Assembly: GCA_013151865.1 (NCBI GenBank) | Contig: JAADHN010000148.1 | Location: 1 to 36,540, forward strand | Reading direction: 5' to 3' | Source: Kiritimatiellota bacterium | Lineage (GTDB): Bacteria; Verrucomicrobiota; Lentisphaeria; Oligosphaerales; JAADHN01 | Length of the DNA stretch: 36,540 bases | Program-made: the position numbers and the translations under genes | In this document: piece after piece, positions 575 to 36,439 of the stretch | Layout of the letters: each line of letters begins with the position of its first letter | Numbering within the stretch: the stretch's first letter is position 1 | The notes under the pieces: generated by a model | What the model saw: only the letters and a program-made list of their open reading frames with translations | Databases searched by the model: none | What the model was told of the DNA's origin: nothing

Positions 575-2755
575 ATGAGAATCGCTGTCGAGGAACAAGT
601 GGTCCTGCCTAGGGATGGAACGGCAGTCGCGTTGGAGCTTCCCCGCGACCTGCAGGCGCTGCGATTGAAGGCCTTACGCCCGGAGAGCGATGCGCCCCCC
701 AATTGCAGCCCCCCGGCCTTGCCACTGATCGACGCCCGGGCGTGGGTGGCGCGCACGCACGGAGAAGACTGGCTGTTGTGGCGTGCCCGACGCACAGCGG
801 AACGCTTGGCTCGATTGCCCATCGAGATTCTTCCCGGTGAACGACTCGTGGGAAGACCGGTTCTGGGAGCACCCACGCCCGAACAGCGCGCAGCCATTGA
901 AAAGGTGCGGACGATCCTCCAATCCATTCCCCCGTTTCCCGGGGGAGACGCCGGCCACTTTCACCCCGCTTACGAGCGAACCTTCGAACTTGGGCTGGGC
1001 GGTCTGCAGGCTTGGGTCCGGCGGCTTCGAGCACAGTATGCGCACACATCCGCGAAACACACGTTCTATAGCGCCTGTGCAACGTCGTTGCAGGCGGTAA
1101 GCACTTACGCGGTTCGAACTGCCGAGGCCTGCGACGATGCCGCGGCGCGGGGGCTGCCCGGCAATTGGGAGCATAACGCTCGAATCTGCCGAAAGATCGC
1201 GACGGCACCGCCGGAGACCTTCCACGAGGCACTTCAGCTCATGTTTCTGCTCATTATCGCACTCTGGTTCGGCGAAAACCATTCCCTAACCTCGCCCGGA
1301 CGCATGGACCAGACGCTCCACCGATTCTATGAGGCCGACATCGCGGCCGGTCGCCTGACCCCTCAAACCGCGCTCGAACTGCTCGCAGCGCTGTACATCC
1401 AGTTGAACATGATCCTTGGGCCCGGTTCCGCCCTCGCCGTCATGGTCGGCGGGCGCGATGCCAAGGGCGCCCCGGTTGCAAACGATCTGACCTACCTTTG
1501 CCTGGCTGCACGACTGGCGACCCGGCTGGTCTATCCCACGGTGGGCTTGGCGTGGCATGACGAACTGCCGGATGAACTGACGAACTTTGCCATGGGCGTC
1601 CTGGCCGCCGGGTTGGGCGACCCGGCGTTCTTCAACGACGATCTCATCCAGCAGGGACTCATGGACAACGGGGTCCGTGCGGAGGACGCCTGGAATTACG
1701 TCAACTCGACCTGCGTGGAGATCAAGGTCGCCGGTGCTTCGAACATCTGGGTCACGCAGCCGTATTTCAATTGTCCCCGAGCCCTGCTCGAGGAAATGCA
1801 GGCCGTCGCTGACGGCGCCGTGCCGACCCCGGACAGCTTTGCCGAATTCGAGGCACGGGTCCGTGCCCGGATTGCCGAGTGGGTCCGGCAGGAAGCTGCA
1901 CGTTTGGACCGGATTTGGCGACAACGCGCCGAAACCGGCTGTTTTCCACTGGCGAGTTGCTTTGTGGCCGATTGTCTCGAAACGGGAAAGGATTTCGACC
2001 GGGGAGGCGCCCGGTACAACTGGGTCGAGAATTCGTTTGTGGGGCTGGCGAACCTCGTGGACGGCCTGCTGGCCGTGCAAGAGCTGGTCTTCGAGCGAGG
2101 CGATCTTTCCCTGCAAGCCCTTTGGGAGGCCCTCGACCGGGACTACGCAGGACACGAGGGACTCCGGCAGCGGATCATCAAGCGGCTCCCCAAGTATGGC
2201 AACGACCATCCGGCAGCGGACGATCTGGCCGTCCGCTGGGCGGATTTTCTGCAACGAATCACCGGAGCACAACGGGTGGGGCCTCACGCCTACGTGCCGG
2301 GGTTTTTCTGCTGGGTCGTTCACGAGCGGTTCGGACGCGAGACCGGCGCCACGCCCGACGGCCGCGGCGCCGGTCTCGCCCTGGCCGACGGGGCCGGAGC
2401 CGCCCAGGGCCGGGAAACCCGCGGACCGACCGCGGCCATCCTTTCCACAACCAAGTGGAGTCACCGTGCTGCTTTGGGGGGATTGGTGCAAAACCTGAAA
2501 GTCTCCCGGACGCACTTGCACAATCGTGCCGGCCGCACTGCCCTCCGGGCTTTGATCGAGACTTACCTGCACCGCGGCGGGTTTGAGATTCAGATCAACG
2601 CCGTGGACGCCCAAGACCTGATCGAGGCCCAGCAGCACCCCGAGAATTACCGCGACCTCCTGGTCCGTGTCGCCGGCTACAGCGACTATTTCGTGCATTT
2701 GAATCGTAATATGCAGAATGAAATCATCGCCCGGACGTTGCACGAGGAAATCTGA
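575..2755 (+). CDS. Glycyl radical enzyme, pyruvate formate-lyase-like family
   Basis: The 726-residue protein belongs to the pyruvate formate-lyase (PFL) superfamily of oxygen-sensitive enzymes that use a backbone glycyl radical to cleave C-C, C-O or C-N bonds. The radical loop near the C-terminus reads RVAGYSDYF, placing the radical at Gly701. The active-site thiyl residue is Cys380 in the motif STCVEIK. The Glu two residues after the Cys is typical of the dehydratase, lyase and decarboxylase branches; PFL itself has two adjacent Cys. The substrate cannot be told from sequence. The ATG at 575 is chosen because GAGGA lies 4 bases upstream; the frame stays open to 176, but that extension does not look like protein. 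The protein is somewhat shorter than typical members (about 780-850 residues). No radical-SAM activating enzyme lies in this window, so the activase must be to the left or elsewhere. Confidence 0.9.
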   Translation: MRIAVEEQVVLPRDGTAVALELPRDLQALRLKALRPESDAPPNCSPPALPLIDARAWVARTHGEDWLLWRARRTAERLARLPIEILPGERLVGRPVLGAPTPEQRAAIEKVRTILQSIPPFPGGDAGHFHPAYERTFELGLGGLQAWVRRLRAQYAHTSAKHTFYSACATSLQAVSTYAVRTAEACDDAAARGLPGNWEHNARICRKIATAPPETFHEALQLMFLLIIALWFGENHSLTSPGRMDQTLHRFYEADIAAGRLTPQTALELLAALYIQLNMILGPGSALAVMVGGRDAKGAPVANDLTYLCLAARLATRLVYPTVGLAWHDELPDELTNFAMGVLAAGLGDPAFFNDDLIQQGLMDNGVRAEDAWNYVNSTCVEIKVAGASNIWVTQPYFNCPRALLEEMQAVADGAVPTPDSFAEFEARVRARIAEWVRQEAARLDRIWRQRAETGCFPLASCFVADCLETGKDFDRGGARYNWVENSFVGLANLVDGLLAVQELVFERGDLSLQALWEALDRDYAGHEGLRQRIIKRLPKYGNDHPAADDLAVRWADFLQRITGAQRVGPHAYVPGFFCWVVHERFGRETGATPDGRGAGLALADGAGAAQGRETRGPTAAILSTTKWSHRAALGGLVQNLKVSRTHLHNRAGRTALRALIETYLHRGGFEIQINAVDAQDLIEAQQHPENYRDLLVRVAGYSDYFVHLNRNMQNEIIARTLHEEI

Positions 2756-3000: not shown

Positions 3001-3173
3001 CCGAGAGTACGATTCGACCGCAGAATCCGCCGTGAACCGACGGGCGGGACTGCTGCTGTCACCGAAGGCAGGCGCACTTCCGGCGGAAAGTGTTCCGGGG
3101 GTCGACGCACCCGGTTGGCGTAAAGCCGGCCTGCTTCCCGGCGAATCGGCAGGCCGCAGTGAAAGGAAGTGAC

Positions 3174-3926
3174 ATGAAGATGCAAACTCGCGCTCTGGTC
3201 TTGTGTTCGGCCCTTCTCGCCGTGGTGGTCCACACCGAGACGGTCAAGCTCAAAGACGGACGCACGCTTCGGGGCAGTGTCGTCACCAAAAAGAACACCG
3301 TAACCGTGGTTTCCGGGACGCGCCTGTTCCAATTCGCCAAGGCCCAGGTCGCCGAAATCACTTCGGCCCCGGCCAAAGCGCCGGAAGCCGCAGCAAAGGA
3401 GAAGGCCGTGAAGAACCCGACCATCAAGATCAAGACCTCCAAAGGCGACATCACCCTCGAACTTTTCGAGGACCAAGCGCCCAACACCGTGGCCAACCTC
3501 ATCGAACTCGCAGAAAAAGGATTCTACAAGGGATTGGCATTCCATCGCATCATCCCGGGGTTCATGGTCCAGGGCGGCTGTCCTTACTCAAAAGAAGGTG
3601 CGCACGGAACACCCGGGACTGGCGGCCCAGGGTACCGTTTCGCGGACGAGTGTCGGCCCGAACTCAGGTTCGACCAACCCGGGCTTCTCGCCATGGCCAA
3701 CAGCGGGCCGAACACCAACGGCAGCCAATTCTTCATTACGCTAAAGGCCACTCCGTGGTTGAACGGACGCCATACGATTTTCGGGAAGGTCACCGACGGA
3801 ATGGACGTCCTGCGCGAGATCGAAGCGGTCGGCACGGAGTCCGGAAAGCCGAAAGAACGGGTTGCTTTCGATATCACGGTCGTCTCGAAGCGGGACCACG
3901 CTTACGCCGTAAAGAAACTGCCGTGA
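3174..3926 (+). CDS. Exported cyclophilin-type peptidyl-prolyl isomerase with N-terminal extra domain
   Basis: The 250-residue protein starts with a hydrophobic signal-like segment (roughly residues 4-20), so it should act outside the cytoplasm on folding of exported proteins. Residues about 22-60 hold a short beta-rich module (KLKDGRTLRGSVV and following) of a type I associate with secreted proteins of planctomycete-like bacteria. The rest is a cyclophilin domain with FHRIIPGFMVQGG, the MANSGPNTNGSQFFIT active-site stretch, and the conserved HTIFGKV. The start at 3174 follows GAAAGGAAG; an in-frame ATG two codons later is possible. It opens a co-directional series of envelope-type genes. A 6-bp hairpin (3940-3954) follows but lacks a T-tract. 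The isomerase assignment is firm; the role of the N-terminal module is unknown. Confidence 0.93.
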   Translation: MKMQTRALVLCSALLAVVVHTETVKLKDGRTLRGSVVTKKNTVTVVSGTRLFQFAKAQVAEITSAPAKAPEAAAKEKAVKNPTIKIKTSKGDITLELFEDQAPNTVANLIELAEKGFYKGLAFHRIIPGFMVQGGCPYSKEGAHGTPGTGGPGYRFADECRPELRFDQPGLLAMANSGPNTNGSQFFITLKATPWLNGRHTIFGKVTDGMDVLREIEAVGTESGKPKERVAFDITVVSKRDHAYAVKKLP

Positions 3927-8003: not shown

Positions 8004-8642
8004 TCAGACGCAGCGGGTCGCGCGCACAACTTCGAGGGCCTCCTTCGCCGAACGCGTGATGCTCCCCCACTCACCGACACGGATCATATCTTTACGGGCA
8101 ATCCAGGACCCGGCCACGAAAGCCACATGCGGCAACCCCAGATACGTTCGCATGTTCTCGATGTTCACGCCGCCGGTCGGGATGAAACGGACCCCCAAAT
8201 GTCCGTACGGACCGGCCAGGGCTTTGAGCGTCCCAACCCCCCCCATAGCTTCGCCGGGGAAGAACTTCAGGTAGAGCAAGTCGTATTCAAGAGCGCGCTC
8301 GATGTCGCTGGGCGTACAGACCCCGGGTGCAAGCGGCAGACCAAACTCGAGCGCAGCCTCGATCACCCGTCGGCTGCACCCCGGCGCCACGGCGAACCGA
8401 GCCCCCGCATCGACCGCCCGCCGAACATCGTCCGGCGTGATCAGGGTGCCGGCCCCCAGCAGCAGATCCGGAAAGCGAGCCGCCGCACTCGCAATCGCCT
8501 CGGCGGCCGCCTCGGTCCGGAATGTAATCTCCGCAACCGACAGTCCCCCGGCCAGCAGGGCCTCGCAGGCCCGTAAACCGGCCTGGACATCCTCAACCGT
8601 CAGGATGGGAACGACACCGGTTTCCGACAATCTCGCAAACAT
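8004..8642 (-). CDS. eda: KDPG/KHG aldolase
   Basis: The 212-residue protein matches the class I aldolase that splits 2-keto-3-deoxy-6-phosphogluconate to pyruvate and glyceraldehyde 3-phosphate, in the Entner-Doudoroff and uronate pathways. Visible features are Glu38 in EITFRT, the GAGTL phosphate-side loop, VAPGCS, the Schiff-base Lys126 in LYLKFFPGE and the FIPTGGV loop. Length is typical of the family (about 205-215). The ATG at 8642 follows AAGGAG, which decides the start; the frame extends further upstream but without protein character. It is the last gene of a minus-strand run of secreted carbohydrate-related proteins, consistent with catabolism of released uronic acids. The KDPG versus KHG preference cannot be read from sequence. 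Confidence 0.92.
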   Translation of the reverse strand: MFARLSETGVVPILTVEDVQAGLRACEALLAGGLSVAEITFRTEAAAEAIASAAARFPDLLLGAGTLITPDDVRRAVDAGARFAVAPGCSRRVIEAALEFGLPLAPGVCTPSDIERALEYDLLYLKFFPGEAMGGVGTLKALAGPYGHLGVRFIPTGGVNIENMRTYLGLPHVAFVAGSWIARKDMIRVGEWGSITRSAKEALEVVRATRCV

Positions 8643-8723
8643 AACGTGCTCCTTCTGTTGAGATCGACACAGTCGGCTGCGGAATGCGTTCTGCCGGCGC
8701 ACGCCGCGGCACGGCCTTGCAGT

Positions 8724-8751
8724 AGTATAGTCCGTCCTCCGGTGCTGTCCG
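8724..8751 (-). promoter_or_regulatory. Candidate promoter for the KDPG aldolase gene
   Basis: On the minus strand CGGACA (4 of 6 to TTGACA) is followed after 16 bases by TATACT (5 of 6 to TATAAT). It lies about 80 bases before the ATG in a 196-base gap that otherwise looks empty, so the aldolase may be transcribed independently of the glycosidase-like gene upstream. Confidence 0.4.
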
Positions 8752-8838
8752 CCGGTCGGCGGCCGCGAGCCGGAGAAGCTGCGCGGGAAAGGCGCTCTGG
8801 CGGCGCGCGCGACTCGCGTGCGGCAAAACCCGTTCCCC

Positions 8839-10806
8839 TCACTCGAGCAGGAGAATGCGGTACACACGCTCGCGGTCGAGACGGGCGGTGCGCCCTCGCA
8901 TCCGAGCCGGGGTACGGTCCAGAACTTCCACGACCCGATGGCCGGCCGGCGGTGTATAATCCTGTGTCTCGTACGCCCAGACAACCTGCGGCCGACCGGA
9001 ATCGTCGCTCCATTCGACTCCGATGCAGTGCCAGGGATCGCCCGGCGCGGCGATCAACCGCCGGTGCCTCATTTGCTCACGAACCTGGCGGAAGGCACGG
9101 TTGTCGTACGTGATGCGTCGGAGGTATTCCGGGTGGTCCGTGATGGCGTTGCCGCGGTAGGTGCGGAGTGTGTATTGCCACGCCAGAATCGGGGGCGCGA
9201 GGTTCGCAAGGCGTCGGAAATACACATCGTACCGGTCGGGGCGGACATGGTACACGAAATGGCCGCTTTTGTAGGACGCGTACCCGCCTTCATCGAGGTC
9301 CCCCTGGGGATAGCCGTCGACGCCAGCCGGACCGCGGCCCTCGATGTAGAGCATTTCGAAGCCCATGTCCTGCAGTTCCTTCATGCGCCGAAACGCGGGA
9401 AGAATATTGAACCCAAGATGTTCGGGATCGCCGTAATCGACCACGGCGGCGACGGACCCGAAAGAGTCAAACCACATGCCGCGGATACCCAGGGCGCGGG
9501 CTCGGCGGAAACCGTCCATGGCCATCCGGTAGTAGCCGCTGTTCAGGTCGGTCCAGGTGAGGGTCGAGCCGGAATAGTCGTAGCGTTTGCCCTTCGTGTT
9601 CTTGGGAAACCACTCCGGGTGTTCCTTCCAGTATCGGGACGCCGTCGTCAGTTGCCCGCTGGGCGACCAAGTGTACACCCCCAGGCCGTGTTCTTCGGCT
9701 GCGGCAATCAAACGGCGCAGACCGACTTCGCCGCCGCCGTACGGCGAAAGGGTCATGTCGAGGATTTGCAGATTGGGCCGAGGCGGTTTGCGCTGGGCCC
9801 CGGCATTGTTCCAGATGCATCCCGGCCAAACCCGTTCGAAGCCGGCAGCGGCCATGCCATCCAACAAAGGAATGACGGCATCGTAGGTGGGCGTGCTGTT
9901 TCGCGGGCGAATGCCTTCGCTCGCCCGGACGCACAGCCGCCGGATGTCCGGCTCCCGAATCCCGAAGTGCGCCCGGACTTCGGCCTCGAGGGCGTCGAGA
10001 CAACGGGCGTACTCGTCCTCCAGGGCCAGACCGGTCAAACGAGCCTCCGGGCAAACCAGCACGCGACGCCACGACGTGCCGGCTTCGGTGCCGGGCGAGC
10101 ACAGGATCTCGTCCGTAAACCGGATTTCCGGCGCGCCCGCCGCACGCTCCATGCCGGTCCGAACCCAGGGCGTGCCGTCGTCGAACCGCCGCGCAATGAG
10201 CATGCACCCGGCATCCCCTCCCTGGAAGTAGAAGCACGGGGTACGGAGAAACTCGACCGCAGGACGGGTGTGCAACGAATCCCGCCCGGCAACCTGCCGG
10301 GGAGGAACGAGATAGAGATCGTCCGGACGCCCGCCGAGTGTCCAGTCCGTCAGATCCACGATTCGGCGGACCCGATTCTGCCGGCTGCGGAATCGCCAAG
10401 CGTACTCGATGCCGGCGTACTCCCTGTTCCGAACCCGTAGGGACGTCGGCCGGAACCGCCACTCGAGCCGATCCCGGACGCCGCTCTTCTTCTCCTCCAA
10501 GTCTGTAACCACCACCTGCTCGGAGCCCCGACGTTCGAGACGAACGAACCGGCACCGGGCATAGCGTCCGCCGCTCTCGGTCTCGATCAGCGGCCGTCCG
10601 GGGGTCGGGCCGTCGCTGACGACAACCGACCCGATGCGCACCCGCCCAATGCCCAAGAGATTCGATGCGTCGCCGGCGAAAACAACTTCGATATCGCTCT
10701 CGGACCATGCCAAGCGCACGACCGCCGCCGTCGCCTGCCAACCGCCCGCACCCAACATCACGCAGATGGCGATCGCAGATCGAACGCAGCAAAACCGGAA
10801 TTTCAT
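8839..10806 (-). CDS. Secreted TIM-barrel glycoside hydrolase-like protein
   Basis: The 655-residue protein begins with a signal peptide (MKFRFCCVRSAIAICVML... ending near Ala-Ala at about residue 27). An N-terminal beta-rich domain (about residues 28-300) is followed by a (beta/alpha)8-type domain resembling alpha-galactosidase-like clans: GLGVYTWSPSGQL, then IRGMWFDSFG with Asp447, then MLYIEGRGP with Glu489. Asp447 and Glu489 end predicted beta strands and are the best candidate catalytic residues, but I cannot place the protein in a numbered GH family. A small C-terminal beta domain closes it (VVWAYETQDYTPPAGHRVV). The ATG at 10806 has GGAGG 7 bases upstream. It likely acts on an external polysaccharide or glycoconjugate. 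It lies between the KDPG aldolase gene and an inverted-repeat element. Confidence 0.7.
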   Translation of the reverse strand: MKFRFCCVRSAIAICVMLGAGGWQATAAVVRLAWSESDIEVVFAGDASNLLGIGRVRIGSVVVSDGPTPGRPLIETESGGRYARCRFVRLERRGSEQVVVTDLEEKKSGVRDRLEWRFRPTSLRVRNREYAGIEYAWRFRSRQNRVRRIVDLTDWTLGGRPDDLYLVPPRQVAGRDSLHTRPAVEFLRTPCFYFQGGDAGCMLIARRFDDGTPWVRTGMERAAGAPEIRFTDEILCSPGTEAGTSWRRVLVCPEARLTGLALEDEYARCLDALEAEVRAHFGIREPDIRRLCVRASEGIRPRNSTPTYDAVIPLLDGMAAAGFERVWPGCIWNNAGAQRKPPRPNLQILDMTLSPYGGGEVGLRRLIAAAEEHGLGVYTWSPSGQLTTASRYWKEHPEWFPKNTKGKRYDYSGSTLTWTDLNSGYYRMAMDGFRRARALGIRGMWFDSFGSVAAVVDYGDPEHLGFNILPAFRRMKELQDMGFEMLYIEGRGPAGVDGYPQGDLDEGGYASYKSGHFVYHVRPDRYDVYFRRLANLAPPILAWQYTLRTYRGNAITDHPEYLRRITYDNRAFRQVREQMRHRRLIAAPGDPWHCIGVEWSDDSGRPQVVWAYETQDYTPPAGHRVVEVLDRTPARMRGRTARLDRERVYRILLLE

Positions 10807-11978: not shown

Positions 11979-14183
11979 TTACTTGGGGACACGCACGGAG
12001 AACCGCCGGATCAGTCCCGGAAAATTTGGCCGCAACTTACCGAACGGGCCGGTCGTGGGTCGCCTGAATTCGCAGCCGACGCCCACGACCGCCGCGGACG
12101 GCGACATGGCTCGACCCACCGCGACCTGTCCCACTCGCCGGCCGTCGATGCGCAACTCGACCTTTCCCGAACCGCCCGGCGGGGGGGGCAGGTACACGAC
12201 CTCGATCCGCGCCCAACGGTCCAAAGGGAGCGCCCGCGGTCCGCTGCTGATGCCCAAAGGACGACCTTGATCCGGCCCGATCCCGGCAATCTGAAAGAGC
12301 ACATGCCGATCCTGGCCCACAAGCAGCCGAAAACCTGTATGAAAACTGCCCTTGGTCAGCAAGGCGCAGTATTCGTTCCCCTCGAACCCGCCGGTCATTT
12401 TTGCTTCGACGCGCAAGACCATTCCGCGGCACACGACGTCGTTGAAGTAATCCGAGGGCAAGAACCAAACCCGGTCGAACCAGTTCATGTCCAGCCCACC
12501 CGGACGCGGTCCGACCGGCGGACGTCCACCCTTTCGAGGGAGGGCCCGCCCCAAAGGGCCGGCGCACGCGCCGCCCAACCAGAACGGGACCTTCAAGTCG
12601 GTCACCCCCGGGACGGTGAAGTCGCCTTCGACAAGAACCCCCGGGTCCGAAGACGCGGGCAGCTCCGGCGGCCGGTCGGCCAGGACGAACCCTTGCAAGT
12701 CGTTTTTAAGGTAGACGAAACCGGATGCCGCATCGGAATAACAGAAACGGACTTGGTACTGGCTGTCCCGTGCATCCCGGGGGAGTTTAACCGTACCGTG
12801 GAGCCGGCGAGTCTTCGCTTCGAAGTCCAGCGAAACCCCGAACGGATCACCGCGCCGACTCGCAGGGGTAATCAGCAGTCGCCCGTCGCAGGCCGTGATC
12901 GGCTCGGGGACGGGCGCCTCGAAGGCCAGTGTCCGTTCGGAACGTAGAACGATGCCAGTGCGTTTTCCGTCGTCGAAAGAACCCGGCGACTTCCCCCGAA
13001 GTGTGAATACCGTCGGACCGGCCGGCGGCGGCGTGAGGTCGGGGTCCCGAAAAAACGCCGCAGACGTCGCAATGATAAAATGGAGCAGGAGGCGTTGCTC
13101 CGGCATGTAAGCGTCATGCCAGGCAGTGGCGATCATCCCCCCGCACCCCCGAGCGGCGGCGTACCGGGCGAATTGGCGAAGGTTGATCTCGTTGTGCCAA
13201 GGCGCACCCCACACGTCTTTGAAGCCCACCTGCTGGAAATAGTCCACAGACGGAAACTCGCCCGTCGGCGACGGCTGGTAGTGCCAGTCCACCACGATGA
13301 TCCGGTCGCGGTCGCGCAGGAAGTTGACCATGGCGTGCAATGCATGGTCCTGACTCTTGCCGAAAGCGGAGTGATACGCTCCCCCCGCCTGGAGCTGCAG
13401 GCGGGGATCCGGCTTGTAACCGGCCAACGCGAGACCGTGATCCCGTGTCCCGAGCGCCGGGGAGAGCATCACATCCCCCCAGATCAGGGGCGTCACTCCA
13501 CGGGCCAACACGTGGTCGGTTCCCAAATTGAGGCAATGCGCAAAAGCCTGCGGCGGGGTCATCCCCAGCTTTTTCGCCAGTTTGGCCATGTCGTCTGCAC
13601 TGAATTCGTCGATGCCGAAGAAAAAGTAGCGCGCGGGATGGTTTTTGGGATACAACGACAGCAGGTAGTCCACCAAGGCCAGGGCGGTTGCGGAGTACGC
13701 ATCGCGCCCGTCCGGCATCCGAAACGCGGCGTTGAGTACGGTCGAACGATTATTCGGGTCGATGACAAGGTCGGGGTACTTGGCCACGACCTCCCGCAAC
13801 AGGGGAAGTTGCTTGCCGATAAACTTCATCTCAAAGACCGGTTCCAGTCCCAGGTCGACGGCGTGCCGGACCAACTTGCGCAGATCCTCCGTACTACAGC
13901 CGTTGGGAACGATGGAACCGTCGGCGCGCAGAGTGATGGTCGACTTGTCCGGCGTCCCCATGCCGAACACCACCATGTTGTAGCCGAACCTGGCCAGCGT
14001 CTCGAGCCGCCGGTGAAAAACCTCCATCGGTTGCCTGTCCGGGAAAACGTGCTGGTGGTATCCCCGAACGGGAAACGGCCGGGCCGGCGGACCTTTTTCC
14101 TTCGGCGCGGCCGAGACGCCCCCGAACCCGATTGCCGCGAGGACCGAAAGACAAAGGACTTTCTGCCGGGAAACAAGTTTCAT
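11979..14183 (-). CDS. Secreted GH20-like TIM-barrel protein with C-terminal LamG-like domain
   Basis: The 734-residue protein has a signal peptide (about residues 1-25, cleaved near VSAAP). Residues about 35-390 form a TIM-barrel resembling family 20 hexosaminidase-like enzymes: RGYHQHVFPD, ARFGYNMVVFGMGT, and FFFGIDEFS, where Asp192-Glu193 sit where GH20 enzymes carry the catalytic Asp-Glu pair, followed by LIWGDVM and VVDWHYQP. The middle is a beta-rich linker domain, and the last 200 residues look like a LamG/concanavalin-like sandwich (WFLPSDYFND, RWARIEVVYLPPPPGGSGKVELRIDG). The likely role is cleavage of N-acetylhexosaminides or binding of them at the surface; activity is not proven by sequence. 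The ATG at 14183 follows AGGAG. It starts 92 bases after rfbA. Confidence 0.7.
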   Translation of the reverse strand: MKLVSRQKVLCLSVLAAIGFGGVSAAPKEKGPPARPFPVRGYHQHVFPDRQPMEVFHRRLETLARFGYNMVVFGMGTPDKSTITLRADGSIVPNGCSTEDLRKLVRHAVDLGLEPVFEMKFIGKQLPLLREVVAKYPDLVIDPNNRSTVLNAAFRMPDGRDAYSATALALVDYLLSLYPKNHPARYFFFGIDEFSADDMAKLAKKLGMTPPQAFAHCLNLGTDHVLARGVTPLIWGDVMLSPALGTRDHGLALAGYKPDPRLQLQAGGAYHSAFGKSQDHALHAMVNFLRDRDRIIVVDWHYQPSPTGEFPSVDYFQQVGFKDVWGAPWHNEINLRQFARYAAARGCGGMIATAWHDAYMPEQRLLLHFIIATSAAFFRDPDLTPPPAGPTVFTLRGKSPGSFDDGKRTGIVLRSERTLAFEAPVPEPITACDGRLLITPASRRGDPFGVSLDFEAKTRRLHGTVKLPRDARDSQYQVRFCYSDAASGFVYLKNDLQGFVLADRPPELPASSDPGVLVEGDFTVPGVTDLKVPFWLGGACAGPLGRALPRKGGRPPVGPRPGGLDMNWFDRVWFLPSDYFNDVVCRGMVLRVEAKMTGGFEGNEYCALLTKGSFHTGFRLLVGQDRHVLFQIAGIGPDQGRPLGISSGPRALPLDRWARIEVVYLPPPPGGSGKVELRIDGRRVGQVAVGRAMSPSAAVVGVGCEFRRPTTGPFGKLRPNFPGLIRRFSVRVPK

Positions 14184-16564: not shown

Positions 16565-17025
16565 GGAACCGGCTCCTTGGCTTGGAACGTCGGGTCTGAG
16601 CCGTCCGATCAATCCGAGTTGCGCCCTTTTCCGGACGGGGGCTCCGTTCTGCGGCAATGGGAACGGGAGTACTCGAGGTGCGGGAAGCGAGTCGGAAGAC
16701 CGGCCTCCCGAAAAAGGGGTGCGAGTCGCGCGCCAAGCGCGGGAAATACAGTATGCCCGCTGCGCGAATAGTCAAAGCGTGTGCGTGCGCCCCGCCCCGC
16801 CCGGCAACGGAACGGGCGGCCGGGAAAGCGGCCGAGCGCTGTTTTCAGCCCTCTCGTCGTTTTCGTCTCCACTCATCAAAAAGCCGCTGCCGACAATGGA
16901 AATCCACGCGGCCACAGTGTATCTGTAGGCCGCGGCGAATCGCTTGGTTGACACGCCGTCGCCCCGAAGTGCCGGCACACAATCGCCCCCACTGGGCGCG
17001 AACGGCTTCATCAAGGAAAAGCACC
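16565..17025. other. Divergent intergenic region between processing protease and isomerase genes
   Basis: About 460 bases separate two divergently read genes, so promoters in both directions are expected. A TTGACT at 16775-16770 on the minus strand, with weak -10 options near 16750, could serve the protease gene. A perfect TTGACA at 16948-16953 on the plus strand has no good -10 at normal spacing. A 7-bp hairpin (CCGCCCG with CGGGCGG, 16797-16819) and a nearby repeated GCGGCCG are present. Frames through the region are Arg-rich and not protein-like. Confidence 0.4.
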
Positions 17026-17784
17026 ATGAAACTCAGTCCCTGTCTCGAGTTGTTCTTTCGCGAGCTGCCCTTCACCGAACGGATCGAAGCCGTGGCCGAC
17101 GCCGGGTTCCGGGCCGCGGAATTCTGGGGACATGCCGACAAAGACTTGACGGCTGTGGCCGCTGCCGCCGAGAGATGCGGCGTCGCCATCACCAGCCTCA
17201 CGGCCTGCGGCAACCTGACCGACCCCGAGAAACACGAACAGGCCGAAGTCGAGTTGGCGGCCGCGATCGAGGCCGCGCGGACGGTGGGCTGCAACCGACT
17301 TATCGTGCTCAGCGGAAATGTCATCCCCGGCAAGACGCACTGCGCACACGTCAAAGCGATCATCGACGGTCTCAAGCGTTTGGCGCCTGCGGCGGAACAT
17401 GCCGGGGTCGTACTTGTGATCGAACTGCTCAACTCCAAGGTGAACCATCCCGGCTATTTTCTGGACAACTCCGAAGACATGGCTGCCGTGCTGCGCGCCG
17501 TCGACCATCCCAATGTGAAGGCGCTGTACGACATCTATCATGCGGGCATTATGGAAGGGAACATCATCGAGAAAATCCGGACGAACCTGGACATCATCGG
17601 CCACTTCCATGCCGCGGGCATTCCCGGTCGACACGAAATGAAGGCCGGCGAGCAGAACTACCCGGCGATCTGCCGCGAAATCGACCGGCTCGGCTTCGAC
17701 GGCTATCTCGGCCTCGAATATTCTCCGACCAAAGATTCTCGAACGTCTCTGATCGAAACGCGGCAGTGGCTCGAACAGGCATGA
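17026..17784 (+). CDS. hyi: Hydroxypyruvate isomerase family protein (sugar isomerase TIM barrel)
   Basis: The 252-residue protein belongs to the xylose isomerase-like AP-endonuclease-2 fold. Hydroxypyruvate isomerases interconvert hydroxypyruvate and tartronate semialdehyde and have a signature near the C-terminus seen here as GIPGRHEMKAGEQNYP; metal ligands are expected in VIELLNSK, LYDIYHAG, GHFHAAG and GLEYSPT. Length (about 250-260) fits. Related family members act as inosose or other ketose isomerases or epimerases, and the next gene, an oxidoreductase, is typical of cyclitol or rare-sugar pathways, so the substrate is uncertain. The ATG at 17026 follows AAGGA. The 95-base gap to the oxidoreductase gene suggests one operon. 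Confidence 0.8.
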   Translation: MKLSPCLELFFRELPFTERIEAVADAGFRAAEFWGHADKDLTAVAAAAERCGVAITSLTACGNLTDPEKHEQAEVELAAAIEAARTVGCNRLIVLSGNVIPGKTHCAHVKAIIDGLKRLAPAAEHAGVVLVIELLNSKVNHPGYFLDNSEDMAAVLRAVDHPNVKALYDIYHAGIMEGNIIEKIRTNLDIIGHFHAAGIPGRHEMKAGEQNYPAICREIDRLGFDGYLGLEYSPTKDSRTSLIETRQWLEQA

Positions 17785-17879
17785 TCCGCCGTCTTTGGCA
17801 CGGAAACCGGGCCCCGAACCGTCGAGGTGAACATCTTTTGCGTGAAGCAGGCGCCTAAAACCTAAGGAGACAGGCAACA

Positions 17880-18869
17880 ATGGCGGACAAGGTACGTGTG
17901 GGATTCATCGGTTGCGGAGGCATTGCCAACTACCACTTCGGCCACTTCGAAAACATCGAAACGGCCCAAATCACCGCAGTATGCGACCGAGTGGACGAAC
18001 GTGTCGAGAAGGCGTCCGAACGGTTCGGCGCCACGGCGTACAACGACTTCCGGCAGATGCTCGACAAGGAGAAACTCGACGCCGTTTACGTCTGCATCGA
18101 GCCCTGCGCCCACGAACGCGACGGTGATAACGTCGAGTTGGCGATCATCGACAAGGGATGCCATCTGTTTATCGAGAAACCCCCGGCGCTAACCATGGAC
18201 TATGCCCGTAAGGTCTTGACCGGGATCGAAAAAAACAACCTGATCAGCGCGGTGGGCTTTCAGGATCGGTACCAGGACATCGTGCCCAGGATGAAGGCGT
18301 GGCTGAGTATGCAGGAAATCGGTTTCTTTAACGGATACTGGGTCGGCGGTATGCCGGGGGTCTGGTGGTGGCGCCGGCGGGAAACGTCCGGCGGTCAAGC
18401 CGTGGAGCAGACAATCCATACCTTCGACATGGCCCGAGTTCTTTTCGGCGATGTGGTGGCGGTTCACGCCATGGGACGACGCGGCATCATGACCGATGTG
18501 GAGAACTACGACACCGAAGACGCCTCCGGCGTGACCATGACCTTCAAAAGCGGCCTGATCGGCACCATTTACAGCGGCTGTTTCTCCCGGTTCGGGGGCA
18601 AAAACGGAATCGATGTCTTCTGCCGGAACGGTCGCATGGAGTATACCGAGCGCCGCGGCTTTCGCGTCCTCGAAGCCAATATGACCATCGACGCCAAAAC
18701 CGGGAACGATTTCGGCCAGGAAGAGGACGACGTGTTCATCGATGCCGTTCGTACCGGCGATCCATCCGAAATCCTGGCCCCCTATGCCGACGCGATCAAG
18801 ACCCTCGAAGTCACGTTGGCGGCAAACCGGTCCATGGACGCCGGCGGCGAGTTGGTTCAACTCGATTGA
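17880..18869 (+). CDS. Gfo/Idh/MocA family oxidoreductase
   Basis: The 329-residue protein has an N-terminal Rossmann domain (VGFIGCGGIANYHFGH, then AVYVCIEPCAHE) with the family EKPP motif (FIEKPPALTM) carrying the conserved Lys, and a C-terminal alpha/beta domain with GGQAVEQTIHTFDMARVLFG, where the His is the usual catalytic-site residue. Such enzymes oxidise or reduce sugars and cyclitols with NAD(P). The ATG at 17880 follows AAGGAGACAGG. The position after the isomerase gene suggests a two-step conversion of the same sugar or inositol derivative, but substrate is unknown. A WWWRRRE stretch after the catalytic domain junction is unusual in composition. RuvC follows after 69 bases. Confidence 0.9.
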   Translation: MADKVRVGFIGCGGIANYHFGHFENIETAQITAVCDRVDERVEKASERFGATAYNDFRQMLDKEKLDAVYVCIEPCAHERDGDNVELAIIDKGCHLFIEKPPALTMDYARKVLTGIEKNNLISAVGFQDRYQDIVPRMKAWLSMQEIGFFNGYWVGGMPGVWWWRRRETSGGQAVEQTIHTFDMARVLFGDVVAVHAMGRRGIMTDVENYDTEDASGVTMTFKSGLIGTIYSGCFSRFGGKNGIDVFCRNGRMEYTERRGFRVLEANMTIDAKTGNDFGQEEDDVFIDAVRTGDPSEILAPYADAIKTLEVTLAANRSMDAGGELVQLD

Positions 18870-18938: not shown

Positions 18939-19442
18939 ATGCGGATTCTCGGGGTGGACACTGCACTGCGTTGCACGGGCTTCGGCGTTCTGGAGTCCGA
19001 CGGGCGCCGATTCAGCACTGTGGACTGCGGAGTGATCCAAAGCCCGCGTGCAGCCCCGCTCAGCGAATGCCTCCGACGTTTGGCCGGAGGCATCCGCGAA
19101 CTCGTCCGCACCTATTCCCCGGCGGCCGCGGCTATCGAAGGAGCGTTCTACTTTAAGAACGTCCGAACCGCGATGGTGCTGGGAGCCGCCCGGGGAGCCG
19201 TAATCGCCGTGCTCAGCGAACACGACGTGCCGATCTTCGAGTATGCGCCCCGTCGCGTCAAACAGGCCGTGTGCGGCTACGGAAACGCGGACAAGCAACA
19301 GGTGGCCCTGCTCGTTTCGAGGATCTGTGCCCTCGATGTGGAAGAAACCCCGCGCGACGCCACCGACGCCATGGCCTTGGCCGTGTGCCATGCGCAGACC
19401 ATGGTCGCGGCCCAGGGCCTGTACCTGCCGGATCCGTTGTGA
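18939..19442 (+). CDS. ruvC: Holliday junction resolvase RuvC
   Basis: The 167-residue protein cleaves four-way DNA junctions in recombinational repair as part of the RuvABC system. The four catalytic acids are visible: Asp7 (LGVDTA), Glu67 (AIEGAFY), Asp140 and Asp143 (PRDATDAMALAVCHA), matching the E. coli arrangement. Length is typical (about 165-175). The ATG at 18939 gives the canonical N-terminus starting MRILGVD; the ribosome site is only a GTGGGG stretch. The E. coli FF motif after the Glu is FYF here. ruvA and ruvB are not adjacent; it lies between a metabolic oxidoreductase gene and proS, so it is probably read from the same transcript. Confidence 0.96.
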   Translation: MRILGVDTALRCTGFGVLESDGRRFSTVDCGVIQSPRAAPLSECLRRLAGGIRELVRTYSPAAAAIEGAFYFKNVRTAMVLGAARGAVIAVLSEHDVPIFEYAPRRVKQAVCGYGNADKQQVALLVSRICALDVEETPRDATDAMALAVCHAQTMVAAQGLYLPDPL

Positions 19443-19530
19443 TCCCGCCGGCGCCGGATATGGGCCGCGATTCGATTCGCTCGGGCGCCCACACAGACAA
19501 CACGACCAAAACGCAAGGAACAACAACCGC

Positions 19531-21261
19531 ATGAGGCTTTCGCAGCTCATTGGACAACGCCTGCACGAGGCCCCGCGAGACGCGCAGACTGCCAGTCACG
19601 TCTTTCTCATGCGCGGCGGGTTCGTTCGGCCGCTTTCGACCGGAATCTACTCCCTGTTGCCTTTGGGCAGACGCGTGACTGCCCGAGTCGAGCAGATTAT
19701 CCGCGAGGAAATGGACCGCATCCGAGGACAGGAAATCCTCATGCCCCTGGTGCAGCCCCAAGAGCTTTGGGAAGAAAGCGGACGCGCCCAGGCCATCGGT
19801 CCCGAACTGCTCCGTTTCCGGGACCGTAACGACAAACCCATGGTCCTCGCCATGACCCATGAGGAAGCCGTCGTCCACCTCGTCCGTTCGGACGTCACCT
19901 CGTACCGGCAACTCCCGTTCATGGTCTACCAGATTCAGATCAAGTACCGCGACGAAGCCCGCCCCCGTGCCGGTCTCATTCGCGTCCGTGAATTCACCAT
20001 GAAGGACGCCTACTCGTTTCATGCCGACACGGAAAGCCTCGACGAGTTTTATCTGCGTGTGCACGAGGCCTACGAGCGCATCTTTCGACGTGTCGGCCTG
20101 CGCGAGTGTGTTTCCATCGAGTCCGACACCGGCATGATCGGCGGCAGCATGTCTCACGAGTTCATGGCCTTGGCCGAGTGCGGAGAAGACGTCATTTTCA
20201 TGTCGCCCGACGGACGCTACAAGGCCAACCGGGACGTGGCCGTGAGCGGTGTCGCGTTCCGGAAGACCGAGCCACGGACGCTCGAAAAAGTCCACACTCC
20301 CGGCCGCAAGACCATCGAAGAAGTCGCCGACTTCCTCGGAATCACCCCGGCAGAAACCGGCAAAGCCGTTTTCTACGCGACCCCGGACGGACGCCTCGTG
20401 TTCGCCATGGTCCGCGGCGATTTCGAGATCAACGAGACGAAGTTGTGCAACCTCTTGCGGACGCCCGAACTCACATTCGCCAACGACGAGCAGATTCGCG
20501 CCGTCGGGGCCGAACCCGGTTACGCTTCGCCCATCGGGCTCGATTCAACCCAGATTACCGTCGTGGTGGACCGGTCCGTGGCGGAATCTTCGAACTTGGT
20601 CGTGGGCGCCAACGAACCGGATTACCACCAAAAGAACTTCAACTTCGAGCGCGATCTCCCCGCGGGCGCCACGGTGGCAGACATCGCTACTGTACGCCCC
20701 GGCGATCCGTGCCCTGTCACCGGCGAACCGTTGATCATGAAACACGGAATCGAGGTGGGCAACATCTTCAAGCTCGGCACAAAATACTCCGAAGCCATGA
20801 ATTGCCGCTTCCTCGACCGGAACGGCCGGAGCCGCCCCATGATCATGGGGTGCTACGGCATCGGCGTCGGCCGCACCATGGCCGCCGTCGTCGAACAGGC
20901 CCACGACGACTTCGGCCCGGTCTGGCCTATGAGCATCGCGCCGTTCCACGCCCACCTTATTGCCATCAATCCCGGGAAAGGAAGCGTGGGCGAAGAAGCC
21001 GAAAAACTGTACACCGAACTCCGCGAAACCGGGGTCGAAGTGCTGTACGACGACCGCGGTGAAAAAGCCGGGGCCGCCTTCTTCGACGCCGACCTCATCG
21101 GCTGCCCTATCCGCCTGATCGTCTCCCCACGCACGGTCAAGGCCGGGCAGGTGGAATTGAAACTGCGCAACGGCTCGCGCCGGGACGTCCTGCCCCGGGG
21201 CGATATCGTGGCCGAAGTCCGCAGCATTGTCGAGGCCGAACTCGCCCGCTTGACGCCGTGA
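19531..21261 (+). CDS. proS: Prolyl-tRNA synthetase, bacterial type with editing domain
   Basis: The 576-residue class II synthetase charges tRNA-Pro. Motif 1 region (PLSTGIYSLLPLGRRV), motif 2 (YRDEARPRAGLIRVREFTMKD) and motif 3 (MGCYGIGVGRTMAAVVEQ) are present. Between motifs 2 and 3 lies the inserted YbaK-like domain (TIEEVADFLGITPAETGKAV, then GDFEINETKLCNLL) that clears mischarged Ala-tRNA-Pro. The C-terminal anticodon-binding domain ends the protein. Length matches the bacterial type (about 570). The ATG at 19531 lies after AAGGAACAACAACCGC. It is 88 bases after ruvC and is followed by a GC-rich hairpin. Confidence 0.97.
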   Translation: MRLSQLIGQRLHEAPRDAQTASHVFLMRGGFVRPLSTGIYSLLPLGRRVTARVEQIIREEMDRIRGQEILMPLVQPQELWEESGRAQAIGPELLRFRDRNDKPMVLAMTHEEAVVHLVRSDVTSYRQLPFMVYQIQIKYRDEARPRAGLIRVREFTMKDAYSFHADTESLDEFYLRVHEAYERIFRRVGLRECVSIESDTGMIGGSMSHEFMALAECGEDVIFMSPDGRYKANRDVAVSGVAFRKTEPRTLEKVHTPGRKTIEEVADFLGITPAETGKAVFYATPDGRLVFAMVRGDFEINETKLCNLLRTPELTFANDEQIRAVGAEPGYASPIGLDSTQITVVVDRSVAESSNLVVGANEPDYHQKNFNFERDLPAGATVADIATVRPGDPCPVTGEPLIMKHGIEVGNIFKLGTKYSEAMNCRFLDRNGRSRPMIMGCYGIGVGRTMAAVVEQAHDDFGPVWPMSIAPFHAHLIAINPGKGSVGEEAEKLYTELRETGVEVLYDDRGEKAGAAFFDADLIGCPIRLIVSPRTVKAGQVELKLRNGSRRDVLPRGDIVAEVRSIVEAELARLTP

Positions 21262-22602: not shown

Positions 22603-23760
22603 ATGGCACCCGAAAAAGGCGTGGTTCGCATGGGCGTGATTGGGGTCGGCGGCATGGGCCAGGGACACTGCAGGACCATGCAGGCCGTGGACGAAATGAA
22701 GCTGACGGCCGTGTGCGACATCGATCCCGCTACGGCCGAAAAAGTGGGCGCCGACTACGGAGTGCGGTGGTTCGCAAACCACCGCGACCTGATCCGCTCC
22801 GGGCTTTGCGACGCCGTTCTCGTGGCGACCCCCCATCCCCCGCGTCCTCCGATCGCCGTCGACGCCATGAAGGCCGGTTTGCATGTCCTGGCCGAAAAAC
22901 CCCTGTCCGAACGAGTCAGCACGGCAGACAAGATGATCGCCGCCGCTCGGGAAAGCAAAGTCGCGTTTGCGGTGGATTTCCAGCGCCGGACCGAACCGGC
23001 CTTCAAGAAAGCCATCGAACTGGTCCGCAGCGGCATCCTGGGCCGGATCTACCGGCGTACGTTGATCTCGCCGGAATACCGCAGCCAAGCTTATTACGAC
23101 TCGGGCGGTTGGCGCGCCACCTGGACCGGAGAAGGCGGCGGAGTCATGATGAACCAATCGCCTCACATCCTGGATCTTTTCATCCTGCTCGGCGGCATGC
23201 CGTCTCGAGTCATGGGCAAAACTGAAACCCGCCTGCACCGCATTGAAGTCGAGGATTTGGCCGAGGCCACCCTCACCTACCCCGACGGCGGCACGGGATA
23301 CTTCTATTGCTCCACCTGCGAAGCCGGCCCCGGGCAAATGATCGAGATCTTCGGCGACAAGGGAAAGCTCTGCTGGCGCAATGGAAAGCTCAGCCTCTTC
23401 CGGTTCGACCCGCCTATCGCGGAATTCACCCGAACCAGCGAAAAGATGTGGGGCGGCCCGAAATGCGAAGAAGTCCCCGTCGACATCCCCGACGGCCCTC
23501 GGGGTCACATCAACATCCTTCGCAACTTTGCCCGAAACATCCTCTGCGGCGAACCGCTGGTCTCCCCCGGTGAAGAAGGCATCCGGTCCCTTGAACTGGC
23601 CAACGCCGTCTGGCTCTCCGCCTTTCGCGGCCGCCCCGTGGACTTGCCCCTGAACCGCAGGGCCTACGACCGCTTCCTGGGCCGTATGCGACGGGAGTCC
23701 AAGTTCGAGAAAGATCCGGCAAGAATCCATAGAGAAACCGATCCGCATCACCTCGTCTGA
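22603..23760 (+). CDS. Gfo/Idh/MocA family oxidoreductase
   Basis: The 385-residue protein has the Rossmann signature VIGVGGMGQGHCRTM, the LVATPHPPRP strand end and the EKPLS motif with the conserved Lys, followed by a C-terminal substrate domain with GGGVMMNQSPHILDLFILLGG carrying the expected His. It is longer than the copy at 17880 and only distantly similar, so the two are not recent duplicates. It probably oxidises or isomerises a sugar with NAD(P). The ATG at 22603 has AAGGAG about 10 bases before it. A second ATG at 22595 lies closer to that site but opens only a 14-codon frame in another phase. The UXS-like gene follows after 63 bases. Confidence 0.88.
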   Translation: MAPEKGVVRMGVIGVGGMGQGHCRTMQAVDEMKLTAVCDIDPATAEKVGADYGVRWFANHRDLIRSGLCDAVLVATPHPPRPPIAVDAMKAGLHVLAEKPLSERVSTADKMIAAARESKVAFAVDFQRRTEPAFKKAIELVRSGILGRIYRRTLISPEYRSQAYYDSGGWRATWTGEGGGVMMNQSPHILDLFILLGGMPSRVMGKTETRLHRIEVEDLAEATLTYPDGGTGYFYCSTCEAGPGQMIEIFGDKGKLCWRNGKLSLFRFDPPIAEFTRTSEKMWGGPKCEEVPVDIPDGPRGHINILRNFARNILCGEPLVSPGEEGIRSLELANAVWLSAFRGRPVDLPLNRRAYDRFLGRMRRESKFEKDPARIHRETDPHHLV

Positions 23761-33336: not shown

Positions 33337-33355
33337 GCGGCAACGAAGCCGCCGC
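33337..33355 (-). terminator. Hairpin with UUCG-containing loop after the DUF4091 gene
   Basis: GCGGCGG and TTGCCGC pair (five Watson-Crick and two G-U pairs) around CTTCG, a stable UUCG-type loop. It starts at the last base of the stop codon. It has no T-tract. Confidence 0.35.
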
Positions 33356-36261
33356 TACGGCCGAGGCGCGACAGTTGCGATCCGCGGCACTTCTTCGGGA
33401 TCGCGCGCCGGAGGCCGAAGGTCCGCCAGCCTGCGCAGGGAACTCGGTGCCGCCGCATCCAAGAGCCCCCCCACGATGGTGCGCAGCCGCCAAAGCTGCA
33501 CAGGGTCCGCGGACTTGAACACCAGCCGACCGGCATCCTGTTCGCCATTCTGCACAAACTCGGGGCCGGTACCCAAAAACCGCCCAACAGCCCCGGCAAC
33601 GGCCCAGCGGGAAACGCCCTTGGTCCGCATGAGCATCACCAGGTATTCGACGTCCTGTTGGCCCCGGCGAAACGCCTTGAGGCGCAGGGACGGCGCAGGG
33701 CCATCGAGCCCGGACGGACCGGGGGGGTAAAGCAGCGCCAGCGTGTCCGCTCGGCGCCAGGAGGCGCCCTTGCCGATCGTTTGCCACGGCAACACACCGT
33801 CCGCACCACGCCGCCAAGCGTCGAGACACCAGCTCACGCATTGCGCGTTCGATTCCGACACCGGGTTCGGACTGCCGTAGGTGAGCACCAGATGGCGCTC
33901 GCGCCGTTTGCGGTCCGTCACGAGGCGCGTGTACTGCCGAAACGCACCGCCGACCACGTTCACATCGAGCAACCCATCGAGCAAATCACGCTGCCATTGG
34001 GGTCTCGATATGTCGCACCGAAAGGCAAGTGCAGCCTTGCCCCGGACCGGGAAAACCCCCTCGTGAAACGCCCGTCCAAACCAGCGCAAGGCCCAAAAGT
34101 CCTGCGTGTGCATCGGTTCGTCGAAAATCCAGGGCGCCGAACATCGGCGCCAACCGGACTTCTTGTAGTAGACCTTGCCGTTCAGGTAGAACTCGAAGAC
34201 CGGTTCGCGCCAGCCCTTGGCCGCCACGTGTGTCGCAAAACGGCGCGCGGCCCGGACGAACTGCGCGCGATAAGCTCCCGTCAGGGCTTCGTCGGCCCAG
34301 TAACCGCCTTTGAATCCCCGCTCGATGCTCACGGGCCAATTCTCGTTCAGCGGCAGGTAAAACGTGTCCACCGGCACGCCTTTGCGCGGCAAATCCAGGA
34401 ACGCCGTCCCGTCCAGGAGCGGGCCGAAACGCCGGTCGTAGCCCCTCCAATCGAACCCGCTTTTCTTCACTTCGGGGGCGCAGCCCGGGGCCGGGACTCC
34501 CCGCCAGTTGTAGGGCAGACGATTCAGGCAGGTGCGATGCCGGTGGGCCAGGCGGTACCATTTCACCTCGTCGGGCGGGCCGGGCAGGCCGTAGCAATTC
34601 ATCTCCGGAATGAACGAGAGCACGTCCGGAAGCGCGAACCTCCACGTCCGCACCACGATGTGGAGCGTGAGCCGCCTGTCGGCGGCGGTGATACGGAGCC
34701 GACCGGCGTGCAGCCCCGGAGCCGCGTCGTGCCTCACGTACAGATCGACAAAAAAAACAGCGTAGGGCGCCCCCGGCGCGGCGGCGTCCTCAACGCCCCC
34801 GGTCCCCACGGGCACGAGCGGGTCCGGAAGAGGGCCCGCCTTGGACGCCACGTTCCATGCACGCAACACCCTGCCCTGCACCGCATCGTCTTGAAAATCC
34901 AGGTCGACCGACACGCCGCCGGCCACGCGGCCCTTGATCACCACCTGAAACGCCGCAAACTCGTTGCGCGCCGCGTACAACCGAATCCGGCGCGCCCGAG
35001 CACTCCACAGATGATTCGCCCGGCGATAACCCGGAGCGTGCGCCGGAAGCAGTTCGCCGGTCTCGGCGTTGATTTTGTCCAGGGGATCGATGACGAAAAC
35101 CTGCACCGGGCCTGCCGACGGCAGAGCTTCGCCCCCGGCACGAAAAATCTCCGGGGCCGCCGCATCGCGCAGCAATTCCGGGGGGCGCCCCGAAAGCGTG
35201 ATCCGAGCCACTCCGATCGGACCGCGGTTTCCCGCGGCGTCCACGGCGCAGACCCCAAGGCGAATCTCTTTCCCCGCCAGTTCCGGGGGCAAGTCACGCA
35301 ACTTCATGACCACTTCTTCGCCTGCACGGCGCGCCGCAGGAATCAACCACCGCGGCACGGGCCGGGCCGTCGCCCAGTCGAATCGCGCCCCCACCCTCCA
35401 ACGCACAAAGAAGCCGATCACGCCGGCAGGACCCCGGTCCCGAGGTGTGCGCCATATCACCCGCGCCCGCCCCGGGGGCAATCCGAGACTATTCGAGGCG
35501 ATGCCTCGGACCGGGTCGGGCGGCAAACGATCGGAGCCGTTCACATAGATTGTAAAGAACGGTGCGGAATTCGCACCCGCCTCGCGACTGGCCATGTACC
35601 GGTTTGGAAACTGGTGGTAGACGAACTTCTCCCCATGCCGTTCGTACTCCGAACCCACGTCGTCGAACACCACAAACCCGTAACTGATCCCGGCAATCCG
35701 GGCCGCAACCACCTGGGGGGCCACCGGGATCGTCTGCCACCCTTGCGAGTCCGGCGACGACGCATCGGCGAACCCCCAAAGCGTATTCCCCAATCCGTTC
35801 ATCACCGCCGTGATGTCGCTGCCGGACCATGCCCACGGCCGGGCGCCTTGCCGCGCCCAATTGAAGGAGGTCGCGCCCGACTCCGTCCGGTACGTGGGCG
35901 AAGTCCCTTCCACCCAGTCCGATGCCAAGCTCGAAACCGTCACACGCTTTTGGACATCCTTGGAAACCGAGCGGACATGCAGCAATGCACCCGTCACGAT
36001 CTTCCCCCGGAGCACGGCAGGGTCCAAGTCCACCAGCGTGAATTCCTGGAAGCTTTTCGTCTTGAGTCGACGCGCCCCGCCCAGGTTCGCATCCCGCTCC
36101 GTCTTGTACGACGACACCCAGGTGTCCCGCGATACCGGCACACGCAACGGGATCCAGGCCGGCGGCCAGTCCCCCCCCCGGCAAACCATGGCCAAGAGGA
36201 CAAGCACGGCGCCCATCCGGGGCCCAACCCATCCGCTGTCGGCCTGCTTCCAATACGACAC
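33355..36261 (-). CDS. Secreted DUF4091 (GH123-like) protein with N-terminal DNRLRE-like domain
   Basis: The 968-residue protein begins at a GTG (36261) with GGAG 8 bases upstream, giving a signal segment GAVLVLLAMVCRGG (residues about 17-30). Residues about 35-220 resemble a DNRLRE/CBM96-type domain (DTWVSSYKTERDANLGG, then a WVEGTSPTYRTESGATSFNW stretch in pieces). A Fn3-like section and a beta domain follow. The C-terminal half is the DUF4091/GH123-type TIM barrel: FIPEMNCYGLPGPPDE, FYLPLNENWP, and WIFDEPMHT with Asp714-Glu715, the pair used in GH123 beta-N-acetylgalactosaminidases, then RRGQQDVEYLVML near the end. Likely an extracellular glycosidase for amino-sugar glycans. Alternative ATG starts lie at 36297 and 36216. 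Confidence 0.82.
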   Translation of the reverse strand: MSYWKQADSGWVGPRMGAVLVLLAMVCRGGDWPPAWIPLRVPVSRDTWVSSYKTERDANLGGARRLKTKSFQEFTLVDLDPAVLRGKIVTGALLHVRSVSKDVQKRVTVSSLASDWVEGTSPTYRTESGATSFNWARQGARPWAWSGSDITAVMNGLGNTLWGFADASSPDSQGWQTIPVAPQVVAARIAGISYGFVVFDDVGSEYERHGEKFVYHQFPNRYMASREAGANSAPFFTIYVNGSDRLPPDPVRGIASNSLGLPPGRARVIWRTPRDRGPAGVIGFFVRWRVGARFDWATARPVPRWLIPAARRAGEEVVMKLRDLPPELAGKEIRLGVCAVDAAGNRGPIGVARITLSGRPPELLRDAAAPEIFRAGGEALPSAGPVQVFVIDPLDKINAETGELLPAHAPGYRRANHLWSARARRIRLYAARNEFAAFQVVIKGRVAGGVSVDLDFQDDAVQGRVLRAWNVASKAGPLPDPLVPVGTGGVEDAAAPGAPYAVFFVDLYVRHDAAPGLHAGRLRITAADRRLTLHIVVRTWRFALPDVLSFIPEMNCYGLPGPPDEVKWYRLAHRHRTCLNRLPYNWRGVPAPGCAPEVKKSGFDWRGYDRRFGPLLDGTAFLDLPRKGVPVDTFYLPLNENWPVSIERGFKGGYWADEALTGAYRAQFVRAARRFATHVAAKGWREPVFEFYLNGKVYYKKSGWRRCSAPWIFDEPMHTQDFWALRWFGRAFHEGVFPVRGKAALAFRCDISRPQWQRDLLDGLLDVNVVGGAFRQYTRLVTDRKRRERHLVLTYGSPNPVSESNAQCVSWCLDAWRRGADGVLPWQTIGKGASWRRADTLALLYPPGPSGLDGPAPSLRLKAFRRGQQDVEYLVMLMRTKGVSRWAVAGAVGRFLGTGPEFVQNGEQDAGRLVFKSADPVQLWRLRTIVGGLLDAAAPSSLRRLADLRPPARDPEEVPRIATVAPRP

Positions 36262-36439
36262 GATACGATCTCCAGGTTCCGATTGCGTCGGTCCCATGGT
36301 GGTGCGGACGGGCCCCGGCCGCAATGCTTCCTTGCGTGTAAAGCAGGCAGGGCCCCTGGGACCACCGTCGCCCACGACGACGGCATTCGCCTTCCCGTCC
36401 TCATCCGTGCCTTCTTGCCTCCCCTCCCTCTGTCTTCTC

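Follow-up and report, generated by a model that had tools for sequence, protein, structure and literature searches.

The window analysed here (bases 1-36,540 of the 36,942-bp contig C10, from a 6.2-Mb, 97%-complete genome of 176 contigs) carries near its left end a gene that is predicted to encode an intact, oxygen-sensitive glycyl radical enzyme (GRE). Our best explanation, which as a whole we hold to be rather more probable than its denial, is that this is a functional CxE-type GRE of a distinct subfamily, TCVE, that is activated in trans and acts as an eliminase on a sugar-like substrate. It draws direct support from the intact residues, the predicted fold, the coherence of the family and the presence of an activase in the genome.

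The gene and the TCVE subfamily

The 726-aa translation contains the motifs NSTCVEI and LVRVAGYSDYF. It matches the Pfam domains PFL-like (E 3.9e-94) and Gly_radical (E 1.7e-25), and with such E-values the GRE motifs have not arisen by chance. The Gly loop around Gly701, RVAGYSDYF, follows the superfamily pattern RVxG[YF]S, and Cys380 lies in a thiyl loop within a predicted GRE barrel fold. An earlier sequence-only reading of this DNA had picked out Cys380-Val-Glu382 and Gly701, both of which are present on translation, and had held that radical chemistry should work, which the intact radical residues make likely. The same reading had called the protein shorter than standard members; it is indeed so when set against the 759-897 residues of most solved full-length GRE chains, and with a family median of 718 aa the short length appears to be a family trait.

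Table 1. Positions of the GRE gene, its key residues and other features of the window
Feature	Positions	Strand	Basis or remark
Left contig end	1..574		end of an open frame that stops at 157, then ~417 bp apparently non-coding
GRE gene, TCVE subfamily	575..2755	+	726 aa translation, Pfam, profiles, alignment, model
His128 in GxxGH motif	956..958	+	75/75 sequences covering the position
Thr379-Cys380-Val381-Glu382, Cys loop: thiyl Cys and CxE Glu	1709..1720	+	invariant 76/76; codons Thr379 1709-1711, Cys380 1712-1714, Glu382 1718-1720
Trp483 and Glu485 (NWVE)	2021..2029	+	invariant, family-specific
Trp580 and His583 (FCWVVHE)	2312..2323	+	nearly fixed, family-specific
Gly701, glycyl radical site in RVAGYSDYF	2675..2677	+	translation, Pfam, alignment
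Cyclophilin-type prolyl isomerase	3090-3926		ordinary neighbour
KDPG/KHG aldolase	8004-8984		ordinary neighbour
Long ORFs of 716, 734 and 1006 aa	8839-10989, 11979-14183, 33355-36375	-	zero Pfam matches
Xylose-isomerase-like TIM barrel adjoining Gfo/Idh/MocA oxidoreductase	16,657-18,869	+	14 kb from the GRE; such pairs typify sugar or inositol catabolism
Class II tRNA synthetase with editing domain (prolyl-type)	19243-21261		ordinary neighbour
Further Gfo/Idh/MocA oxidoreductase	22603-23760		

The best relatives retrieved by an unseeded protein search share 40-60% identity, and STCVE is found in 18/18 sequences of the unseeded alignment, the window protein included. A scan of the collection returned 80 loci from many phyla; because one of its two search patterns contained NSTCVEI, this set is partly seeded for the motif, and the unseeded relatives agree with it on motif invariance. 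Across the 76-sequence alignment, partly motif-seeded as it is, Thr379, Cys380, Val381, Glu382 and Ile383 never vary, nor do Trp483 and Glu485, while Trp580 and His583 show almost no variation. The 76 relatives span Lentisphaerota, Armatimonadota, Poribacteria, Planctomycetota, Chloroflexota, Latescibacterota and others. The replacement by Thr of the Gly that usually precedes the Cys, which the earlier reading had pointed out, is therefore real but not peculiar to this protein: being invariant in the seeded and unseeded alignments alike, Thr379 is a family signature and not a lesion.

In the tree, the window's clade (mostly RVAGYSDYF and CVEIK) stands apart from the rest (mostly RIGGYTDYF and CVEITP). 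Loss of the Gly in homologs was considered and excluded, the alignment showing the variant Gly loop RIGGYTDYF. In two homologs (L122:6978-9135 and L145:3-2863) the match does not lie in one frame and is spread over two overlapping or split ORFs; these are either sequencing errors or decaying copies.

All full-length GRE equivalogs score at most 302 bits against the window protein, with 994-1150 required, and the best reaches 302 of the 1000 needed. The NCBIfam cut-offs for HypD, CutC, sulfopropanediol dehydratase, HPAD and indoleacetate decarboxylase are missed by wide margins (213-302 vs 1000-1150 bits), and sampled TCVE relatives likewise fall below the equivalog cut-offs. Glycerol dehydratase, diol dehydratase, PflD and CutC group together in the tree, outside the fully supported TCVE clade; the close grouping with a characterised family that the sequence-only reading had named as fatal to its view was not found. 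With scores so far below all curated models, and with pocket residues of its own, the TCVE group is apparently a coherent, uncharacterised subfamily of the CxE type (eliminase-like), widespread across phyla; on the sequence evidence it does not appear to be a CHARACTERISED family. A literature search returned no description of it, which is weak evidence given how thinly subscription papers were covered. That the substrate could be new, as had been suggested, is plausible, since the protein is close to no characterised family.

Fold, active site and proposed chemistry

AlphaFold2, run on the family alignment, gave a model with pLDDT 94.2 and pTM 0.94. Among solved folds, glycerol dehydratase, PflD, diol dehydratase and CutC superimpose on it with Z 41-42 over ~700 residues at 2.0-2.2 A, and benzylsuccinate synthase with Z 41.8. 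The best Foldseek match of the model is 1r8w, and a profile search of solved relatives placed CutC, diol dehydratase and glycerol dehydratase on top. CxE eliminases combine a Cys-X-Glu motif with a partner His, and the TCVE enzyme has both, as Cys380-Val-Glu382 and as His128, which aligns with the GH of glycerol dehydratase, diol dehydratase and PflD. Judging by the shared GxxGH motif, His128 should be the counterpart of His160 in HypD, which lies 2.5 A from Glu436, both residues being essential (PMC7077986).

The pocket is another matter. The WHD Asp that follows the Cys loop in glycerol/propanediol dehydratases is Thr or Ala in all family members, so the leaving-group chemistry may differ from that of glycerol and diol dehydratases. 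Because this Asp is replaced and the family has its own Trp483-x-Glu485 and Trp580/His583, we regard the protein as resembling the eliminases while differing from them in its pocket; the Trp580/His583 region should correspond to the HypD barrel strand that carries the substrate-binding Thr645. In pyruvate formate-lyase (PFL), the residue before the thiyl Cys is the catalytic, acyl-carrying Cys418. Position 379, we assume, is the position of Cys418, and for that reason Thr379 may reach the substrate.

The CxE motif occurs in decarboxylases too, so eliminase chemistry is something we infer. A decarboxylase, or another non-eliminase GRE sharing the motif, is nevertheless unlikely: arylacetate and 4-hydroxyphenylacetate decarboxylases have the same fold (Z 38-41), and the diol dehydratase WHD Asp is missing as noted, yet the decarboxylase models give 213-239 bits against ~290-300 for eliminase models, the solved decarboxylases come below the eliminases in sequence searches, and the set of His plus CxE matches the eliminases. 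We give hardly any credence to a PFL variant in which Thr379 takes the place of the Cys418 nucleophile. The generic PFL-like annotation and the presumed coincidence of the two positions speak for it. Against it, PFL has a Cys-Cys pair without the CxE Glu where this protein has Thr-Cys-Val-Glu, with Glu382 invariant; the PFL model TIGR01255 scores 90 bits where 994 are required; and the PFL fold reaches only Z 30, compared with 42 for the eliminases. The Glu had already been taken to argue against a true formate lyase, a judgement that these results bear out.

As an eliminase, the enzyme would work as follows. A radical-SAM activase encoded elsewhere, on contig 175, would install the radical on Gly701, from which it would pass to Cys380, and Cys380 would abstract a hydrogen from the substrate. 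With His128 tuning it, Glu382 would take care of a hydroxyl proton of the substrate, and the group next to that hydroxyl, in the simplest case water, would be eliminated as in glycerol, diol and hydroxyproline dehydratases. Thr379, Gly in those dehydratases, may turn its hydroxyl toward the substrate. In short, the TCVE enzyme probably removes water from a sugar-like compound.

What that compound might be can be judged from gene context. The operon-like neighbours of TCVE relatives vary, the commonest family being URO-D-like at 6/96, and the neighbourhoods of relatives hold no constant pathway gene. Xylose-isomerase-like TIM barrels, Gfo/Idh/MocA oxidoreductases, SDR epimerases, Fe-ADH and amidohydrolases recur, and a few relatives have 3-keto-disaccharide hydrolase, sulfatases or GH2 beside them. 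These genes fit, weakly, sugar or cyclitol metabolism. Sugar-derived polyhydroxy compounds are our best guess, and we put the chances of a carbohydrate-derived substrate at about even. GREs can open sugar-like rings, as YbiW and PflD do (PMC12441222).

Activases and their distribution

The enzyme had been called an orphan, with no activase within 34 kb downstream. This holds for the whole of contig C10, where a profile search found no radical-SAM protein or GRE activase. To the left, 574 bp separate the gene from the start of the contig, and they contain neither an activase nor a second GRE; an open frame stops at 155-157, and Pfam and BLAST searches with its fragment at 2-154 gave no match. 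An activase directly to the left, which would have spoken against the orphan claim, is thus absent from what can be seen, the sequence further left being unassembled; since the contig simply starts there, the left flank is unavailable and should not be taken for empty. Contig C91, which has a GRE at its left end, was considered as the upstream partner of C10; its GRE is of the GGCME type and not the GGCTE partner, and the pairing is unsupported.

Searching the rest of the genome showed that activases do exist there. Two exceed the TIGR02494 cut-off: that on C146 adjoins another GRE, and no GRE turned up in the vicinity of the other, on C175. This solo protein (323 aa, CPLACPWC, 322.8 bits to TIGR02494) is 48-58% identical to activases near TCVE enzymes in other genomes, as against 43-46% for activases that neighbour another type of GRE or lie at a distance from the TCVE gene, and in the activase tree it nests among TCVE-linked activases with modest support (81-85). 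We infer that it activates the window GRE in trans. The orphan claim thus stands for the contig but gives way before this solo activase.

Nor is such a separation unusual. An activase over the cut-off is present in 26/27 genomes bearing the TCVE subfamily. Among loci flanked by 3 kb or more of sequence on each side, an activase lies within 5 kb at 1/15 loci of the window's clade and at 11/26 of the sister clade. The Latescibacterota MAG G085 has one GRE, of the TCVE subfamily, and one activase, on different contigs; in the closed genome of Oligosphaera ethanolica, a sister-clade member, the TCVE gene, at 635 kb, has no activase in its vicinity. Because activase-free TCVE loci are this common in the window's clade and occur in a closed genome of its sister, the orphan claim dissolves into a general pattern: these lineages separate GREs from activases.

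An ordinary operon pair in cis, whose dedicated activase lies just beyond the contig break, is accordingly improbable. The break is only 574 bp from the gene and the sister-clade count shows that pairs exist; however, such pairs are confined to a single flanked locus in the window's own clade, both over-cut-off activases lie elsewhere in a 97%-complete genome, and a 417-bp gap and another frame intervene between gene and break.

In these genomes GREs outnumber activases. By hand count, the 27 TCVE-bearing genomes hold ~221 Gly-radical domains and 55 activases, or ~4 GREs per activase, a figure that is approximate owing to MAG binning and cut-offs. The source genome encodes nine GREs with the Cys loops CVE, CTE, CME, CWE, CNE, CHW and TCVE, of which 0/9 reach an equivalog, and one or two activases appear to serve all nine. 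The eight other GREs (L082, L084, L086-L091) are found on C147, C46, C125, C170, C146, C129, C91 and C15; the one on C15 has GCHWT and hence no CxE Glu.

In other genomes a GGCTE-type GRE directly adjoins the TCVE enzyme (for example at L093, L096, L099, L129, L148, L157, L160, L162 and L168); the GGCTE relative in the source genome is alone on C46, unlinked to the TCVE gene. Three GREs accompany one activase at L148, L160 and L162. At L154:2077-14144, five GREs follow one another on one strand in a 12-kb run and are followed by one activase; their Cys loops are GCTE, SCMG, TCVE, ACNR and GCYE, two of them without the CxE Glu. Operons with three to five GREs were not described in the literature we searched, again weak evidence because subscription papers were thinly covered. 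Two threonyl radical enzymes beside one activase have been called atypical (PMC11528403). A wider reading, in which Lentisphaerota and their allies use one or two shared 'hub' activases to turn on an entire set of divergent GREs, the operons of three to five GREs run sequential carbohydrate steps and the TCVE reaction is new, is one we put forward tentatively and would not bet on.

Comparison with known systems

GREs are among the main means by which anaerobes break C-O, C-N, C-S and C-C bonds, and the TCVE subfamily, which spans many phyla, seems to be without an assigned reaction. Its host lineages depart from the usual expectation that a GRE is accompanied by an activase of its own, on which genome mining relies to detect and confirm GREs; methods based on adjacency will miss or mislabel such enzymes. 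The question is open to experiment, Oligosphaera ethanolica DSM 24202 being a member in culture.

The GGCTE-type GREs (L093, L096, L099) occur in the same genomes as the TCVE enzymes, often in tandem operons, but have a different Cys loop and form a separate clade, both clades being fully supported; the literature search found no reaction for them. With trans-4-hydroxyproline dehydratase, HypD, the TCVE enzyme shares Cys-Val-Glu and, by motif, His160 (PMC7077986), whereas it scores 295 bits to a HypD model that needs 1100. YbiW and PflD, which cleave 1,5-anhydroglucitol-6-P and 1,5-anhydromannitol-6-P, resemble it in fold (Z 40-42), and PflD also in the CVE motif; a sugar-derived substrate is a plausible analogy, although identity is 28-30% and the pocket residues differ.

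The B12-independent glycerol/propanediol dehydratases (1r8w, 5i2a) share with the TCVE enzyme the fold (Z 42), the GH, CVE and RVAGYS motifs and, probably, radical elimination. In contrast to them, it is 29% identical by structural alignment and at least 60 residues shorter, has Thr for Gly before the Cys, lacks the WHD Asp, and carries Trp483, Glu485, Trp580 and His583 where they have other residues. Finally, the threonyl radical enzyme pairs (PMC11528403) offer a precedent for more than one radical enzyme per activase. There, Thr replaces the radical Gly, whereas the TCVE enzyme keeps the Gly and has its Thr before the Cys; and where those enzymes come in pairs, the related operons described here have up to five GREs to one activase.
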